From Nannobrachium achirus (taxonomy: Eukaryota > Chordata > Actinopteri > Myctophiformes > Myctophidae): a stretch of DNA of 64,000 bases. The translations under genes and the position numbers were made by a program. Below the pieces are notes generated by a model. It was not told the origin of the DNA. It was given only the letters and a program-made list of their open reading frames with translations, and searched no databases. Positions 9,971-58,709 of the stretch are shown here, piece after piece. Positions within the stretch are counted from its first letter, which is position 1; each line of letters begins with the position of its first letter. The stretch is from contig OY997661.1 of NCBI GenBank assembly GCA_963921795.1, positions 40,831,966 through 40,895,965 on the forward strand. The letters are read 5' to 3'.

Positions 9971-10444
9971 GAACAGCTTAAAGGGAACGTTTGGTCACTT
10001 TATCATCTAATCAGGCTCTTTTATGAACACCCTGGACAGTTTTTAATTTACTATATTCAGTATTTACATATTTGATGTAAATGTTGCAGGCTCAGGGCCT
10101 CTCCACATACACACCCATTGTAACTTCAAACTCCATTTTAACCATGATAGATTCATTGAAACCCATTTTCTTTTCTGGTAACTCATACTACCCTCCTAAT
10201 ACGTGAGCAGACCGTGTTTTCTCAATAACCTTTTCATTTATTTTTTAATAATTTGTTGGGAAAAATTAAATACAAAACTAAATTATTACAGTACAGTCAG
10301 CTTTGTGTTATGTGTCTCATGTATCCTGTGGAGGACAGTCTTCCTGTTGTTTGTGAGAAAAAATAAATACAAAACAAAAAACAGAATTATTACGTTTTAT
10401 TTGTTTGTAAACTGTTGTTGTGTTGCATCTCGTTCTCTCATCAG

Positions 10445-11016
10445 GTGCGTGTGAACTCACACTGGATCCAAACACGGCATACAGCGAGCTCTCTCTGTCT
10501 GACAGCAACAGGAAGGTGACCAATGTGGGAGAGTATCAGAAGTATCCTGATCACCCAGACAGATTTACAGACTATTACCAGGTGATGTGTAGAGAAAGTC
10601 TGATTGGACGATCTTACTGGGAGGTGGAGTGGAGTGGTAGATATGTTTTGATAGCAGTGTCATACAGATCAATCAAAAGACAGGGTGCTGGTCATGACTG
10701 TTGGTTTGGACAGAATAACAAGTCCTGGGGTCTGCTTTGTAAGGGTGATGATAACAGTTACAGTGTGTGGCACAATAAGAAGTACACTGTCCTCCCTGTC
10801 AGGTCCTCTGGCTCCAACAGAGTAGGAGTGTATTTGGACTGTCCTGCCGGCACTCTGTCCTTCTACAGAGTGTTGTCTGACTCACTGACACACTTACACA
10901 CCTACCAGTCCAGGTTCACTGAACCACTCTATGCTGGGTTCTATTTTCTTTATGAAGACTCCTCAGTGTCTCTGTGTCAGAGAGAGGAGCAGCAGCAGCA
11001 GGAGGAGGAGGGTTAG
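10445..11016 (+). CDS. PRY-SPRY (B30.2) terminal exon of first fish NLR gene
   Basis: This exon encodes about 190 residues that begin SACELTLDPNTAYSELSLSD once the codon split with the linker exon is restored. The PRY half carries the family hallmark LDPNTA, and the SPRY half carries WEVEWSG, SWGLLCKGD, RVGVYLDCPAGTLSFYRV and PLYAGFYF. In fish NLR-C receptors such a B30.2 domain forms the C-terminus and is thought to act in ligand recognition. The same module ends fish TRIM proteins. The exon starts after TTCTCTCATCAG and stops at TAG (11014-11016) after a Glu/Gln-rich tail. No frameshift or stop interrupts it. The assignment to an NLR rather than a TRIM gene rests on the linker exon at 1-28 and the paralogous gene at 55-62 kb. 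Confidence 0.88.
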
Positions 11017-29486: not shown

Positions 29487-29552
29487 GAAAATAGCTGATC
29501 TACAAGCTCTCAACACGTTGTGCTGCGAGAGCTTGTAGATCAGCTATTTTTG
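29487..29552. repeat. Recurrent hairpin core with matched arm changes
   Basis: AAATAGCTGATCTACAAGCT pairs with AGCTTGTAGATCAGCTATTT. CTCTCAAC inside pairs with GCGAGAG. The TGATC/GATCA and CTCTC/GAGAG variants occur on both arms of this copy only. Confidence 0.93.
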
Positions 29553-30659: not shown

Positions 30660-31142
30660 GTACTGTATCTAATTTACGTACAATGTTCTTGTGTTCATTT
30701 CTTTTTTTACAATTTAAAGTTGCAATCTTAACTGCTCTGACTACACATTACTGCACATTACTGCATTCTCTGCTGAGTGTGATGAACTTCCTCTTACAAT
30801 GTTTGCTTCTGCTATAGTGTGCGTGCGTGCGTGCGTGCGTCTATCTGTCTACAGTACTGCGTCTATCTTATGCACAATGGGCATAAGATAGATTCTCCAA
30901 GATATTTCTTCTTCTTAGAGGAAGTGTTTAAGAAGATTTTGGCATAGTAAGAACAGAATCTACACACACTGAAGAGCACTCTTAGGGGCCATTCACACTG
31001 AGCACTAACTATTAATTTACCGAATGTCTGTCGGTCCGTCCTCCGTCTGACCGTCTGTCATGCTGACATCACTGATAGATACTAAACAGTGCCACCGCCA
31101 TGTAGACAAGGCAGAATTTCTGAAAATGTGCTTGTATAAAGT

Positions 31143-31280
31143 CCCGAAGGCATTTTGCGAATATTTATTTTATACAACTGTTCTAGGGGTATTAAGGGAT
31201 GCTGAATCCAAATTTGCCGTATAAAATGCAAAAAAAAGTTCCTAAATGGCTCAAAATTGAGAAATCCAACATGGCCGCCA
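31143..31280. repeat. Inverted repeat, left copy (138 bp)
   Basis: It begins CCCGAAGGCATTTTGCGAAT and ends AATCCAACATGGCCGCCA. It is the reverse complement, at roughly 88-90 percent by eye, of 37613-37751, which lies on the other side of the 1,539-aa gene. Homology stops sharply at CCCGAAGG on both outer sides. Short direct duplications outside were not evident. Confidence 0.9.
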
Positions 31281-31543
31281 CTGCAAGGCTGAAATCTATT
31301 TAAGTGCAAATCTTTTTGACTAAACAAGGTAGAAATTTAACTAAATGTGTTTTTCTAGGTTAGCCTACATGGGGAATTTGAAATTCTATCCTGATTTTAG
31401 ATCAGACGTGAATAAATGGCTTGAAACTCAAACATGTATAGCAGAAAAGGTTTGTTATTGTTGCATAATTCGTCAAACAGAAACAAAAGCAGGATGAACC
31501 ATAGTTTTATTCATCAAAACTCTTTGATTTAGATTTTGCTATC

Positions 31544-31583
31544 ATCCATCCATCCATCCATCCATCCATCCATCCATCCATCT
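31544..31583. repeat. (CATC)n microsatellite
   Basis: About nine CATC units. Confidence 0.95.
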
Positions 31584-31767
31584 TCAACCGCTTATCCGGA
31601 ATCGGGTTGCAGGGGTAACAGTTCCAACTGAGACTTCCAGATTTCCTTATCCGGAGCAACTTCCCAGGCCAGTTTGGAGATATAATCCTTCCATCTGGGC
31701 GCTCGGGGGGCATCTATCAACAATGCAAATTATATATAGTCAATCAATCAATATTTCGAGCAGATGT

Positions 31768-31808
31768 CATAGGTATCTTGCAGCTGCATGCATCCAATTC
31801 CACTTTTC
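31768..31808 (-). pseudogene. Degenerate duplicate of the terminal CXC exon
   Basis: On the minus strand CCATTCTATTCAG precedes a frame that with the donor phase reads RKSGIGCMQLQDTYD. The real terminal exon reads RKSHMACMEACNCN after TTCTATTCTATCCAG. Acceptor region and first codons are shared, but the Cys pattern is lost. Confidence 0.5.
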
Positions 31809-31910
31809 CTGAATAGAATGGATTATAATATAATATAATAGTATTTTACCATATCAATAAAAGTAAATGTACATGGGAATACTTCTTACTGTAATCCTTA
31901 CTGTGGCAGC

Positions 31911-31992
31911 TTATTCACAGTCTTCCTCAGTGTTCCGGCAAGTGTTGAATTTGTTGCAGTTGCATGCTTCCATACATGCCATATGACTCTTT
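31911..31992 (-). CDS. Terminal exon of FEN1-like/CXC protein gene
   Basis: The long exon ends within a Cys-rich motif at a CAG/GTATGT donor (exon edge 32166). The minus strand offers a TTCTATTCTATCCAG acceptor 173 bp on, and the joined frame reads CSCRKSHMACMEACNCNKFN then TCRNTEEDCE and a stop at 31911-31913. This restores a complete CXC-type array (CGC..C....C.C.....C...C.C....C) as in tesmin/TSO1-like domains. Reading through the donor instead would end after CRYVCMYNRLY and truncate the motif. I infer this exon from splice signals, phase and motif completion. Confidence 0.8.
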
Positions 31993-32165
31993 CTGGATAG
32001 AATAGAAGAGAAGGGGATACAACGTTTATAGCCAGCACAAGTACATCAGGGTAGGGTTCATCAATCTGTCATCATCTAAGAGTCTAGAATATGCAGTCTA
32101 GTAGGCTGATATTCTCTAAAATTACCAAATCCCATTAGTACAATCTATTATACATACATACATAC

Positions 32166-35100
32166 CTGCAGCTGCAGCGTTGGCTGAGGCACTCCTTTTT
32201 ACACCCACACGAAGTGAACTCCCTGCAGGCTTTGGGCATAGGTGGCAGAGAGAGTAGCTGTGGCACTAACTGGCCTTCCTTTATTAACCATCCCATTTCC
32301 TTCACTGGAGGAAGATCGGGGTGTGGCAGGTGAGCTTGATTCCATATAGCTGCTTGATGGTGTGCACGCATGATATGGAACCTCACAGCATCTGTGGTTG
32401 GTGGCAGAGTCTCTTGGGGACGACCTTTGCAGAATAACTTCACTCGTGCTTTGTTGCATGAGTCAACATCAGGCACACCATAGAGCTTACAAATGAATCT
32501 TTCTGATGCTGTCATGATAGTTTCTGTGAAAGGGCCCTTCCCAAGGCCAGCAAGATCACTGTGATGTTGTTCGAACACCTGCCAGGCTGTCTTCTTTCCG
32601 TGGCCGCTGAACTGAGACACACTGTCACATCCAGTAAGGGCATGGAAGGCAAGGAGTGTGTCCAGTTGATCCTTAGACAGTATCCTGTGAATTTCATGCA
32701 CTGGGAAAAACTTTGGGTCCTTTGATGTCCCAGCTTTCATGTAGACATAGGTACATCTGATTTTGTCAAAGTGAGCAAGCAGTAGTAGAAGCACGTCTGT
32801 GTCACGTGCTGACACGACTACTGTTTCCATCGGTGCATGGATACAGTGAAGGATCAGTCGTGTATCAGCTTCCTCGTGGTCAGCACTCAGGGAGGAGACT
32901 TCAAGATCCGGATCTGTTGACTTGACAGTCGTCGCTTCGGCAAACCCACCTGATACTACCACCACAGGTTCACTTTCCAGACTGTGTTCTATCAGATGGT
33001 TTGAGAGTAATCGAGCAAGATCTGCCTTGTTCTCCTCCAGTGCCATGAAGCTTGACCAGTCTGCTGGAATTGGAACGGACTCATTGGCTATTTCACGGCG
33101 TACTGGTCTGTGTCGCTGTTTGCGCTTTGTCCTTGTACCTGTTTTGATGGATTCTTTATGGTACCTGTCGAAGACCACGTCAACCCTCTGGTACTTCTCT
33201 CCCATCTTCAACACTGTGTCAGTGAACTTGTTGGCATAGTCACCGAATGTTGCACTGTCAGGTGGCTTTCCAAGGGCCATTACCAGAGCTTGGCCATCAA
33301 TGACTAGGCAACTGGGTCCCTGAAGGGTAATATCTGCAGGGGTTTGCACTTGTTTGGTTAGAATATTTGCTAACACAGACTTATTGGTGGAATGTAGAGT
33401 TCCGTTAGTTGCAGCCAGAGATGGTGGGATGGGCATGAGTTCATGCTGGAGGATATGGTCCAGGTCTACCTTACGACCTGCTCTGTAAGCTGTGATGAGC
33501 CTTTGCAGAATCTGCCTGTCCACTTTGATGGTGTTTTGCTTGTTCTTGGCAAGTTGCACAACTTCATACAAAGAAGAAAATGTCTTGGCTTTGTTCTTTC
33601 GAATGGGTGATTTTAGGTTCAGGTGCTGGTCACTCTCTGGAGGTTCACACAGACGTTTGTCCACAAACGTTTTCAGTTGTGCCTGTCCAAGGTGTTCTGC
33701 ACCAAGCAGAGATTCTTGAATCTCAGGTGTGACTACATCCTTGTTGATTATGTTTCTTAGCGTGTCACCACCATCTTGAAACACTCCATGCTCTTTCATA
33801 GACACACATAGTCTACTTTCATCAACGTTGTCTCTCTCCATTCTACTCGTTGTGCACTCAGGGTGTGTGTACACATCGTCTTCTTCGTCAGTTGTCAGTC
33901 TCAGCATTGCTTTTGTCCGAGTAGCTATCTCTGTTCTCATATTATATGACAGTGTCCACCTACTGAGGGATGTTTCTATCCTGGTGATTCCTACTAGGCC
34001 TCCACTCTTTTTTCCTGTAGCATTGAGCCACTCTGTACTTTGATCCGCTGAAACCTGATTGAAGAGGCGATCACTGCGTTTTACAACAAAGTTGCCTTTC
34101 TGAAATTCAAGGAGGACTTCTGGTGGGAGAGCAGACATCTCAGCCAGGTACACAGTACCCCATCTGGCGTAGTTGATATGGTCATACCTAAAGAAGAAGG
34201 GCACCATACGTTTGAAAGCAAACAGGTGGAGATCCCACAGACCATCCCGTTGAGCTCTTGTGAAGTCGAGTAGGATGCTGACCATAGTCATGTAGTCCCA
34301 CCAGAATGCAGCATTCGGGTCATCAACTGCAAGTGATGAAGCAAACTCTTTCATTGGCTGCTGGAATCTCTCTGTAGACAGTTTGTTGATCATCTGTGCG
34401 ATGTTGTCAGCATCTAAGGACTGGCAGAGATCTGTGAGTTCTGCTCTCAGGGTAACATCAACTCCATCCAGATAGGTGTAAAGCCGTGGGAGTAGTAATT
34501 GCCAAAGAGCCTGCAGGGTAAGTTTGTGGGTCCTTATGGCACGTGCATACCCCTTTCCTGCCATGACATGCTGAGCAGCATTTGCTCCGAGAAGATCGCA
34601 CTTGACCCATAGTTCGCTCAGGCCAGAATCAGCCATGTGTTGTCCGATCACACCCAGGAAGTTCATGGCAATGTGAAGGCCTCCAAGGCAAGGGATAAGA
34701 ACATCCTTGTACTCTTCCACTGACCACTTCAGTTCGAGCAACTTTGGATAAAGTGCCTCGTCCACTGTCAGAATGACATGTTGTTGTTCCATTGATTTGG
34801 CAACATGGAGAACTCGCTTGACAACTGTGTTCAGTGTATCAAGTTCAGATGCAGGAGCCTGGATGATTGGTAGATACCCTACTGTAGTTTTCTCTGGGCT
34901 GACTGTACTTGCCTTTTGATTGTACATTGTCCAGGAAGGCATTGGTTTTTGAGATGTCCTGGACACAAAGAATGCCATGTCAGTAGCGTGTGCTTTCTTT
35001 GCTGCGGGACATTGCTCAGATGACTGTATGAAACAGTCTGCTCCTATTACACCACTGAATGGGCGCTCTGTGATTCCTCTCTTTGGTGCAGGTATGATAT

Positions 35101-36703
35101 CAGTCATAGCCTTTGGGATGTTTAGGGTTTCTGACTTGGAATAAAGATTGATCCCTTCAAGGAGATCACCTTCAGGAGGACCACGTTGCCAGGCAGCCAG
35201 CTGAGTGGCATGGAAAGTCCCTTTTCCATCCAGAGTGTATTCGTTGATGTCGACATTGTCAGTTGAGAAATGAACAAAGCGATCCTTTACTAGATTTGGT
35301 GGAACAACAGCACCACATTCATCCATGGTCTCCAAGGTCTTCTTAGCCAATGCAGTATCAAGTTTGAGTACCTCACGGTAACTCATAACATGACCTGCCT
35401 GGTGAAACATGTTTACCAACTCCTTCGATCGTGTTGCTTGATGAAGGGTACTGGCCAGTCCTATGTGCTTCGGAGTGAGGAACTTGTCTCCACTAGCTGT
35501 GTACATGAGATCCTGTGCAATACTGAGGATTCTAAGCTGTTGTCTGTCTGTGGTCTTATCATCATCATTATTGTCATCCTCCAGCAAGCGCTGACCGCCT
35601 AGTAACAAGTTGAGGAACATGTACAGGCTGTTGGGTATGCTGTCTATTGCTCTGTCTTCACTGATGTCTATCCCTTCTTGTCTTGGATGTGAGAGCATGG
35701 CACTTCGGATCTGCAATGCCACGTGGACCATGTTCAGGAACATATCTTGATTCTGATGTTTGAATGTAGGAATGACTCTATGAATATCTGAGGTGTCGTC
35801 TTCCACCATTGCTGATACTGGAACATGCCGGTATTTGGATGGAACCAAGACAGTACGAGGTTCATTTTGAGGCTGATCATGCAGAACAACAAAGTCATAT
35901 ATTCCCTCCAGACGATCAGCTATTTGTTCCTTGAAGGTGTTCCTTCTGCTTAGAAATCTAGATGGTATATCTAGTTGAGCGTCATTAGCTAGAGTACAGT
36001 ACCGGTCCCACACATGTACAAGATCTAGAATATCCGCTTGCTTTGCTGATTGTTCAAGTTCTTGACAGATCCACTCAAACGGCATATCCGTGCTTGGAAG
36101 TGACATATTTTCCATGCGTTCGGTCCTACGTTCAAACCTGTTCTTGCAAGTTGTGTGATATTGTCCTTCTGCAGCTACAAGATCATTAACACAAGCTAAT
36201 CGCACTCTTAAGAACGAGTCATACATTGCTGTTTGTAGTATTCTTTTGCTGACTCTCAATTCTTGTATGGAATGTAATCTTTCTTTCGTCGCATGCTGGC
36301 AAAAGATACACTGTTTCCAATCTATTGGAGGTATGTTGCTCCGCAGACTAACATTTCGCGTAGTTGTTGTGGATGCAGATGAACCTTGTTTCGTATTTTT
36401 TTTCGATTCTGCCATCAATTTCCTTTCAATTTCACTTTTAGACATGTATTTTGCTCGGCAGTCCCTATGCCATGAGAATAGCTGAGGTGAGTCTCCTTGA
36501 AGTACCTTAGTAAGTCGATTGGTTGCAATCCGAAGATTGTCAGCATGTAATTTCAACCGGAGTTGTCTTATAGTGTCAACTGACTGGAGGCCACCTTCAC
36601 TAACTCTCATGAGCTGTTGCCAATTGTCTTCCTGGCATATGATGCATAACTCTGGTTCAGATGACATTACGCTTTCTTGGGTATAGTCTATTGCTTCAGC
36701 CAT
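32166..36703 (-). CDS. FEN1/XPG-like nuclease fused to Cys/His clusters and CXC tail; main exon
   Basis: One uninterrupted exon from ATG (36703, MAEAIDYTQ) to a CAG/GTATGT donor; with the terminal exon the product has about 1,539 residues. The N-terminal part has two Cys/His clusters of similar plan: CIICQ..WHRDC (about 20-90) and CIFCQ..YHTTC (about 135-205). A long middle region holds LTVDEALYPKLLEL (near 650), CLGGLHIAMNFLGVIG (near 680) and SADQSTEWLNATGKK (near 890), which could be an RNase-H-like transposase core, but that is a guess. Residues about 1130-1370 match the FEN1/XPG nuclease plan: LVIDGQALV, VVFDRY, HEEADTRLILH, ARDTDVLLLLLAHF and TGCDSVSQFSGHGKKTAW, in the order and spacing of the metal-binding acids plus helix-hairpin-helix region. 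A CXC tail ends it. Flanking inverted repeats suggest a mobile element. I know of no named family for it. Confidence 0.85.
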
Positions 36704-36733
36704 GATTTCGGTCACCAATTGACTAATCCAGAC
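36704..36733 (-). other. 5' UTR just before the start codon, after a predicted acceptor
   Basis: TTTCCTCTAG on the minus strand is a good acceptor ending at 36734. In-frame TTG/GTG codons upstream of the ATG are possible, but the ATG at 36703 is the natural start. Confidence 0.5.
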
Positions 36734-36924
36734 CTAGAGGAAAGTGTGAATTTTCATACAAAATACAAAACCGTTACAATGCGGCACAACGTACTGTATA
36801 CAGTCATCAAAAAGCATTCAAGTATTTGTAACCAAAGAATCTAAATACATTCACAATATTGCTGTTTACATCGAAATAATGTCATACAGTATTCTCATAA
36901 AGTTGAAATAAACATAACACTTAC

Positions 36925-37000
36925 GATCAATGCCTCCTCTCTCTGTCACAGCAAACATTACACTGCCAGTCTGCCACTCTACCTCTCACAGGTTCAGACT
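36925..37000 (-). other. Candidate 5' UTR exon of the nuclease gene
   Basis: The minus strand has GGAGGCATTGATC followed by GTAAGTGTT, a strong donor at 36924. Paired with the acceptor at 36734 this gives a 191-bp intron, of similar size to the 173-bp intron at the other end of the gene. The upstream limit is not determined. Confidence 0.4.
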
Positions 37001-37126
37001 AATTGGAACTCAATTACAACTTCAAAGTAAAGATGTCAGAGTGACATCACACAGGTGATTGTAATGAAGCAGGGTAGAGACACACAAATTACAAATAAAA
37101 TACAATATAGCCTGGAAGGCAACATA

Positions 37127-37205
37127 CACACCATATACCATATACCATATACCATATGCCATACCATACCATACCATACCATACCATACCATACCATACC
37201 ACACC
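37127..37205. repeat. (ATACC)n / (CATATAC)n microsatellite
   Basis: ACCATATACCATATACC grades into about eight CCATA units. Confidence 0.93.
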
Positions 37206-37612
37206 ACATCACATATTATAAGTATTTAAACAACATAAAACATATCACATTATCACATACTGGCGAAAGCCGAAATGCGCGTGCGCGGGGGATTGGGAGG
37301 GGTTCGTAATTCGTATAGGTGAGGGGTGGGGGGCTCACAGTGGGGATGACAGGGGTTCCATCACAGCATGTGACAAATTTGACTTGATTAATTGACTTGA
37401 AATTTGACTGATTATAATAACACTAGCTATTCATATTTAGAATGAAAAGGTATGCAATATATGTGAGATCTAAGCAGTTTCTTCACAATACATATCAAAT
37501 CTGAATGTGGCATCAGATTGCCCATGTAAAAAAACATACAAAAGCATATTTGATCCAAGTTTGTACCTGTTTACACATAGTTATACTTATAAATTGAGTT
37601 TAGCCTGGCGTC

Positions 37613-37751
37613 CTGGCCGCCATGTTGGATTTCTCCATTTTGAGGCATTTAGGAACATTTTTTTGCATTTTATACGGCAGATTTGGATTCAGCACCCCTT
37701 AATACTCCTAAAAATGTTGTGTATAATAAATATTCGCAAAATGCCTTCGGG
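37613..37751. repeat. Inverted repeat, right copy (139 bp)
   Basis: It begins TGGCCGCCATGTTGGATTTC and ends CGCAAAATGCCTTCGGG. It pairs with 31143-31280. The ATGGCGGC/GCCGCCAT segment resembles a YY1-type binding site, which is suggestive only. Confidence 0.9.
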
Positions 37752-37759
37752 GTTCTGAT

Positions 37760-38515
37760 TATCTGAAGATTGATCCTGTCTAATGGTAACAATTCTACAT
37801 TAATATATGATTCATTTTACAATAAAGTTTTTATCATATCTTTAAGAGCAGTGGTTCTCTAGAGCCCCTTTTCCACTGGCCCAACTCCACACCACTCCAC
37901 ACCACACTGCCCACTTGTGTGAGGTTTTCCACTACAAGGACCTGGGTAGAGTGGTGTGAAAGTGATACTAAACAGGGTACTAAAAGGTATCCACTCTAGA
38001 GTAGGTCTGAGCTAGGCCACACAGGGCCAAACACATCATAATGACTGATCACTCACTGGCTTTTCATTTAGACCACCAGGATATAGTTATAATACATGAT
38101 AATAGATTCTATTGTGTTATAACCACTATTATATTCTATTATAATTATCATAGTAATACATTAATACTTTATAATGTATTATAATCACAGTTATAATCCA
38201 TTATAGTGCATTATAATTAGGATAGTTGTAATAAAAATGTATTGTGTATTATATATAATGGGGTACATATGGGATTTGGGATTGAACTCAACCGGCTCTT
38301 TTTGGGTTGGGTTGTAATTTAGATTTATTTTGTAATTTTATTTATTTCACATCCTTCACATCTGTTTATCGCTTACTCATGATCAGAGCTGTATGACGGA
38401 AGTGTTTGCAAATTGTGTGAGGCAACAGTCTGGTCACACAAGACTCTTTGTTGTCAATAGCATGTATGTAGGCTACTATATCCTGTTGAGGTACAGAATC
38501 TGTACTAGATTACAT
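37760..38515. other. No gene seen
   Basis: The stretch at 37807-37862 (TTTATCATATCTTTAAGAGC then AGTGGTTCTC) matches the left flank and first bases of the hAT element at 43078, so the two places share ancestry. The remainder is AT-rich with TTATAAT-type repeats at 38090-38260. Confidence 0.5.
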
Positions 38516-56651: not shown

Positions 56652-56827
56652 AAAGCTATATTTAGTTTAGCCCTCTGGAATCAGGTCAAATAAATTGCAA
56701 GGCCATGTGGAAATGTTCAACTATAGAGTTTAAGTGGTTAACTTGAGAATCACCAACCCTTCTCATTTGTGTTCTATAATTACCATAACATGCCCTCAAT
56801 GATGTATTTTGCTCTTTTGTCCTTTAG

Positions 56828-58598
56828 CAACTCCTCCTGCTGTGTATCAACAACGATTCAAGTCTAGACTGAGGAAGAAGTTTCAGGTTTTGTCTACAAA
56901 ACAAGGGAAAAAAACATTTCTGAATGACATTTTCTCAGACATCTACATCACAAAGGGTGGGAGTGGCGAGGTCAATAAAGAACATGAAGTCAGACAGATT
57001 GCACCAGGATCCATGCAACCAGCAGAACCAGACAAGATCATCAGCATGGAGGACATGTTCAAAACCTTACCTGGAGAAAAGGGCCCAATAAGAACAGTGA
57101 TGACGAAAGGAGTGGCTGGCATTGGTAAAACAGTCTTAGCAAATAAGCGTGCTCTGGACTGGGCAGAAGACAAAGCCGACCAGGATGTCCTCTTCATGAT
57201 TCCATTCACTTTCCGAGAGCTGAATAAGAAGAAGGACAAGGTTTTCAGCTTGATGGAGCTCCTTCATCAGTACTTTGGTGAAACCAAGATGGAAGAAATC
57301 TGTGGCCCCGACGGGTCCGGAGTTATGATCACCCTTGATGGACTGGATGAAAGTCGGATTCCTTTAAAATTCGAGGACAATGAGATCTTGACCGATGTCA
57401 CAAAGCCGGCCCCCTTGGACGTGTTGCTGACAAATCTCATAAGGGGGGACCTGCTACCCTCTGCTAAACTCTGGATAACCACTCGACCTGCTGCAGCCGA
57501 TCAGATACCGACTGATTATGTTGACAGGACGACAGAGGTCAAAGGCTTCTCTGATGCTCAAAAGGAAGCGTATTTCATGAAGAGATTCAGTGATAAGGAT
57601 GTGGCCAAAACAATCTTCTCACAAATCAAGAAATCACTAAGCCTCTACATCTTGTGTCACATCCCAGTCTTCTGTTCCATTATTGCTTCCGTTCTGGAGA
57701 ATGCGCTAAGAGAAGGAGAACAGGATGAGAAAGGACCTAACACCCTGGCTGCGATGTTCATCCACTTCACAGTGGATCAATCCAAAAAGAAAGATGAAAA
57801 GTATACCAGCAGTAAACAGAACAGCAATGTCATTCTGTCTCTTGGAAAAATGGCCTTTGACCAGCTGGAAAATGGCAACCTGATCTTCAGTGAAGAAGAC
57901 CTGAAAAAGTATGGCATTGATATCAGAGATGCCGCTGTGTGCTCAGGAGTTTTCACACAGATCGTGAAAGAGGAGTATGGGCTATACGAGGACCAGGTGT
58001 TCTGCTTTGTCCATCTGAGTGTTCAAGAGTTTCTGGCCGCTCTTTATGCCTATGTGTCATTCATCAACAATGGTGACAACGTACTGAGAAAACCAAAAGC
58101 AACCTCCAAGTTGCCAAATCCATTCAGAGACAAGGAATTTGACTTCTACCAGTGTGCTGTAGACAAGTCCTTAGAGAGTCGCAATGGACACTTGGATTTG
58201 TTCCTCCGTTTTCTGCTGGGCCTCTCATTGGAGTCCAATCAGACTCTCTTACGACGACTGCTTGATGTGAAGACCGGAAATAGGTCCAAGGCCAATAAGA
58301 AGACCATTGAGTACATCAAGAAGATGATCAGGAAGAATCCCTCTCAAGAGAAGAGCATCAATCTAATCCACTGTCTAAACGAGCTGAATGACCATTCTCT
58401 AGTGGAGGAGATCCAACAGTCCATGAGTTCAGGAAGTCTCTCCACAGACAAGCTCTCTCCTGCTCAGTGGTCAGCTCTGGTCTACATCTTGCTGTCATCA
58501 GAAAAGGAACTGGACGTGTTTGACCTGAAGAAATACTCTGCTACAGAGGAGTGTCTTCTGAGGCTGTTGCCAGTGGTCAAAGCCTCCAAGACAGCTCT
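56828..58598 (+). CDS. NLR gene 2, FISNA-NACHT exon
   Basis: A 1,771-bp exon between TCCTTTAG and GTAAGTGC, intact. It opens with a FISNA domain (YQQRFKSRLRKKFQVLSTKQ; YITKGGSGEVNKEHEVRQI), the fish-specific NACHT-associated module. The NACHT ATPase follows: Walker A GVAGIGKT at about residues 172-179 of the assembled protein, Walker B MITLDGLDE at about 244-252, WITTRPAA near 293, and the winged-helix-region motif FVHLSVQEFLAAL near 471. The expected catalytic residues of a nucleotide-binding oligomerisation switch are therefore present. The exon ends in the helical linker before the LRRs (LRLLPVVKASKTAL). Fish NLR-C proteins act as cytosolic immune sensors or regulators. The exact ligand is unknown. 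Confidence 0.95.
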
Positions 58599-58709
58599 GT
58601 AAGTGCATTGACAATGAGTGGTTAGATTCAAGATTATGTTGTTTTATTTTAATAGAAAATAAAATACAATACAATAATGTTTTTTTTATTTCTGTTATTT
58701 TTTCTTCAG

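Follow-up and report, generated by a model that had tools for sequence, protein, structure and literature searches.

Element limits and gene at the locus

The DNA analysed here, referred to as the window, is a 64,000-nt stretch of the Nannobrachium achirus genome (contig OY997661.1, positions 40,831,966 to 40,895,965, forward strand). It holds a 6,680-bp element with the ends TAGACA...TGTCTA, flanked by an identical 3-bp repeat and carrying on its minus strand a gene whose predicted product is a D-D-E transposase fused with a FEN1-like nuclease. Its features, in window coordinates, are as follows.

31103–37782, minus strand (that of the gene): whole element, from limits shared with other genomic copies, ends and flanks
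31100–31102, no strand: left target duplication ATG, from the ends and flanks of copies
37783–37785, no strand: right target duplication ATG, from the ends and flanks of copies
31103–31108, plus strand: short terminal inverted repeat TAGACA at the left end
37777–37782, minus strand: short terminal inverted repeat TGTCTA at the right end
31143–31280, plus strand: left subterminal inverted repeat (138 bp), 40 bp in from the element's end
37614–37751, minus strand: right subterminal inverted repeat (138 bp), 31 bp in from the element's end
32166–36703, minus strand: transposase gene, first exon, beginning with the ATG at 36703 (open frame and splice prediction)
31911–31992, minus strand: predicted exon 2, which completes the CXC tail and ends at the stop codon (splice prediction; tail of relatives)
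36458–36646, minus strand: first Cys/His cluster, CIIC ... HRDC (alignment, motif location)
36146–36310, minus strand: second Cys/His cluster, CIFC ... YHTTC (alignment, motif location)
34010–35272, minus strand: predicted RNase-H-like D-D-E core containing a long helical insertion (model secondary structure; column conservation)
32324–33385, minus strand: FEN1/XPG-like nuclease domain (model match; conserved motifs)
31911–32209, minus strand: CXC (tesmin/TSO1-like) cysteine-rich tail, split by the predicted intron 31993–32165 (splice prediction; PF03638)

A preliminary description of this locus had taken the two 138-bp inverted repeats to bracket a DNA transposon. The pair itself is real: the arms are 138 nt long and 91% complementary, with identical outer 27 bases, of which the window contains exactly two copies at up to three mismatches, where shuffles predict 0.00. 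The arms are not, however, the ends of the element. A search of the 1.66-Gb genome with one arm turned up 343 first-look candidates, 40 of them scored matches, and in all 20 places sampled around such matches conserved sequence runs past at least one arm; the repeats are therefore subterminal, and both the arms as termini and a 2-bp target duplication formed by the adjacent GT were given up for ends at 31103 and 37782. The left limit of the shared sequence falls exactly at 31103 in 12 of the 19 rows that extend beyond the left arm, and the right limit exactly at 37782 in 11 of the 18 that extend beyond the right arm; the remaining rows end within 7 bp of these positions, except L023 on its left side. 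The short inverted repeat TAGACA/TGTCTA starts at the same limits.

Target duplications were counted in 17 two-ended copies, that is, the 20 sampled copies and the window copy minus L022, L030 and L033 (one end in the sampled stretch) and L023 (left end lost); L018, whose left end is altered, and L024 were kept in the count as failures. An identical 3-bp repeat flanks 15 of the 17, including the window copy with ATG, and an in-register match of 4 bp or more is seen in none, while mismatched left and right flanks, paired as a control, agreed at 3 bp in 10 of 272 cases. The genome search and flank alignment proposed in the preliminary description yielded both the ends and the duplication.

The minus-strand open frame spans 32135–36733 and, read from the ATG at 36703, would give a protein of 1,539 amino acids, a length that depends on the predicted intron 31993–32165 and second exon 31911–31992. 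This splice, predicted from sequence, is supported because relatives carry the CXC tail unbroken in a single frame; the large exon, small exon and length proposed earlier agree with it. The two Cys/His clusters, the five FEN1/XPG motifs and the CXC tail that the preliminary description had listed could all be located in the protein, and the RNase-H-like core that it had suspected mid-protein is predicted, from model secondary structure and column conservation, to be a D-D-E core with residues D482, D648, H677 and E891 (numbered from the ATG). The corresponding nuclease residues are D1136, D1179, E1277, E1278, D1280, D1301, D1303 and D1360. Besides the transposase gene, no open frame of at least 130 amino acids lies inside the element.

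At E values up to 1, PF03638 was found in 5 of the 11 aligned members, the lowest value being 8.5e-6, and the unspliced frame of the window gave no match. Sequence searches of the window protein against Pfam, NCBIfam and PDB returned nothing informative, as did the 11-row profile against PDB, and scans of viral contigs and genome contigs gave no confirmed relative (best tblastn E value against L001–L007, 0.57).

Genomic copies and recent movement

Two of the sampled copies are complete. Over about 6.67 kb, the copy L019 (C9) differs from that of the window by 6 substitutions and 12 gap columns, and the copy L020 (C3) by 4 substitutions and 2 gap columns; their target duplications are CAA and TTA, respectively. 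Both encode the protein over the full frame with no internal stop, at 99.87% (L019) and 99.93% (L020) identity to the window protein. A fourth near-identical copy is incomplete and was left out. With three intact copies on three chromosomes differing by 4–6 substitutions, the element has moved recently and spread over several chromosomes, which, together with the defined ends and 3-bp duplications, bears out its description as a DNA transposon. Complete copies elsewhere also dispose of the possibility, raised in the preliminary description, that the repeats never surround this gene, although in most sampled copies the repeats are kept around gene fragments only.

The other 14 two-ended copies measure 2.2–6.5 kb, 12 of them less than 3.6 kb. 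Among the 18 incomplete sampled copies, fragments of the nuclease gene occur in both orientations in 14, in one orientation in three and not at all in one. All nine of these that were examined for self-complementarity (L016, L017, L018, L026, L027, L028, L029, L031 and L035) have internal inverted arms of 687–1,070 bp and outer arms of 390–445 bp, making the shorter copies nearly palindromic. In three copies (L021, L025 and L028) the duplication is ATA and the right flank reads ATATGCC; they may have inserted into one and the same repeat, or reflect a local preference for certain targets.

The FEN1-like nuclease and a proposed mechanism

The protein model matches EXO1, FEN1 and XPG, at 7–14% identity among the 50 matches listed, and the VIA-align rows of this comparison span the nuclease part only. 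In the FEN1/XPG superfamily, the acidic active-site motifs follow a set order, which is also found here, and the modelled domain has a FEN1-type fold, supporting the earlier proposal that the protein carries a FEN1-like nuclease domain. By column conservation, none of the acidic residues varies among the 10 alignment rows. As this invariance extends across families with 26–48% identity to the window protein, the residues appear to be under selection, which suggests that the domain is not idle. FEN1, EXO1 and XPG are separate host enzymes, whereas the nuclease of the window element is a domain of the transposase. A single-sequence structure prediction was uninformative (mean predicted local distance difference test score 35.7), and a likeness to RAG was set aside as too weak, the six RAG chains among the 50 Foldseek matches listed having E values of 1.4 to 4.8 and probabilities of 0.04–0.13.

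From the anatomy of the element we infer cut-and-paste chemistry, as well as the binding sites and the part played by the nuclease. DNA would be bound by the Cys/His fingers and the CXC tail, with the 138-bp subterminal repeats as the most likely binding sites; the D-D-E core would cleave at the TAG...CTA ends and join these to a target cleaved with a 3-bp stagger; and the FEN1-like nuclease would probably process the second strand, flap or hairpin at the excised ends. We tentatively put forward that the fused nuclease may perform an obligatory second catalytic step, with the D-D-E core cutting one strand and the nuclease removing the 5' strand, flap or hairpin. The abundance of inverted duplications among the incomplete copies, found in nine of nine examined, would also fit a nuclease that serves repair, replication or the resolving of palindromic copies instead of transposition chemistry. 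We regard such a role as rather unlikely, given the fusion of the domain to the transposase, the constancy of its acidic residues in every row, and the link that PMC10045372 draws between the enzyme encoded by Academ transposons and the length of their duplications. A literature search, mostly at the level of titles and abstract openings, found no experimental study of the mechanism of the Academ group.

Probable relation to the Academ superfamily

The nuclease of AcademX transposons is XPG-like. Members of the hAT superfamily make 8-bp target site duplications, a length at odds with the absence of duplications of 4 bp or more from all 17 two-ended copies. The citations for the Academ superfamily and its AcademX lineage are Kapitonov and Jurka 2010 and Kojima 2020, the latter cited in PMC10045372. 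In PMC10045372, AcademX is described as the nuclease-encoding Academ lineage with 3–4-bp target duplications and AcademH as having duplications of 9–10 bp, their length being related to the encoded enzyme, nuclease or helicase; Academ elements are reported from zebrafish, medaka and stickleback in PMC4746887. The window element shares with AcademX, so described, an element-encoded nuclease, a predicted D-D-E transposase and a duplication of 3 bp, with none of 4 bp among the 17 copies. This leaves two suggestions of the preliminary description without support, a new type of transposon and the lack of any named superfamily that relies on such an enzyme; a new superfamily founded on the nuclease being unique was rejected on the same description. 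We consider it very probable that the element is an autonomous, recently mobile cut-and-paste DNA transposon encoding one fused protein, most likely of the X (nuclease) lineage of Academ. The best reading is of a new family within a lineage already described, the likeness to AcademX being one of description.

Homology of the transposase to Academ is no more than suggestive: Pfam DUF6589 matched 4 of the 11 aligned members at E up to 1 (best 4.8e-6), below the curated cut-off. By eye, the alignment and DUF6589 proteins have a common order of motifs: DN[LVI]D, D-Q/E, H with M/C-N two residues on, and D-x3-E. The genome holds 69 DUF6589 matches, against none in 14 control genomes. Elements combining a helicase with DUF6589 were seen at L045, L046 and L047 (with L048–L051). 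Two sampled DUF6589 genes adjoin a helicase gene on the opposite strand, with DEAD and Helicase_C at L045 and Helicase_C at L046, where the upstream piece lay outside the scan; RecQ zinc-binding matches beside DUF6589 genes were below the cut-off. The L045 element has 9-bp target duplications in two copies, or 8-bp ones if a shared terminal C belongs to the element, which is close to the description of AcademH. DUF6589 may be the AcademH transposase; a literature search for the name DUF6589 found no paper. The window element resembles AcademH in its weak DUF6589 similarity and in how its motifs are ordered around D, D, H and E. The AcademH-like elements of this genome, however, have a separate helicase gene and 8–9-bp duplications, whereas the window element has a fused nuclease and a 3-bp duplication, and its protein gave no helicase match.

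A second family in the same genome, 46% identical, is represented by copies L036 and L038 on C16 and C6 (flanks L053–L056). Its ends are TAGTCTGG...CCTGACTA, and 2 of 2 copies have 3-bp duplications, ATA and TAG. By eye, a GAGGCATTTTGGGG-type inverted repeat lies about 40 bp inside these ends and has the string GGCATTTTG in common with the window repeat.

Several results weigh against the assignment to AcademX or its parts. The best DUF6589 match scores 26.0 bits against the curated cut-off of 27, the window's own protein has no DUF6589 match, and an hhalign profile comparison with helicase-linked transposases was not significant (probability 0.3%). The nuclease profile reaches EXO1 in PDB at an E value of only 0.26, and Foldseek with the model returned no PDB row at E 0.001 or better. 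Two of the 17 two-ended copies, L018 and L024, lack a 3-bp duplication, and the comparison of the element with AcademX was with the published description of that lineage. The subthreshold homology, the failed profile comparison and the reliance on description would all suit a separate superfamily that arose by independent fusion of a D-D-E transposase and a FEN1-like nuclease and merely resembles AcademX; we hold this to be improbable, as nuclease and 3-bp duplication both fit the AcademX description in PMC10045372 and the D/D/H/E motif order is common to this alignment and the DUF6589 proteins. That a long intact open frame here marks a domesticated single-copy host gene lying between repeats by chance is contradicted by the three complete copies, which are nearly identical, sit on three chromosomes and differ in their target duplications, and by many relatives in the genome, to the point of being scarcely credible.

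The element lies near fish NLR-type (nucleotide-binding, leucine-rich-repeat) immune genes: a FISNA-NACHT-NOD2_WH-NLRC4_HD2 gene fragment, in which FISNA-NACHT are fish-specific domains, is found at 56803–58602 (plus strand) of the window, and a PRY/SPRY exon at 10411–11016 (plus strand). Outside the element, positions 29488–29550 form a perfect inverted repeat of 24 bp whose loop measures 15 nt.

The putative AcademX transposon of this lanternfish would represent a little-studied group; it is intact, has moved recently, and both its ends and its 3-bp duplications are defined. With three nearly identical copies, an assay of transposition in cells becomes practical, and would test directly why the transposase carries a FEN1-like nuclease. 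If the nuclease step is obligatory, two nucleases would share the work within a single eukaryotic transposase, and this would account for the 3–4-bp duplications of the X lineage as against the 9–10-bp duplications of the helicase lineage.
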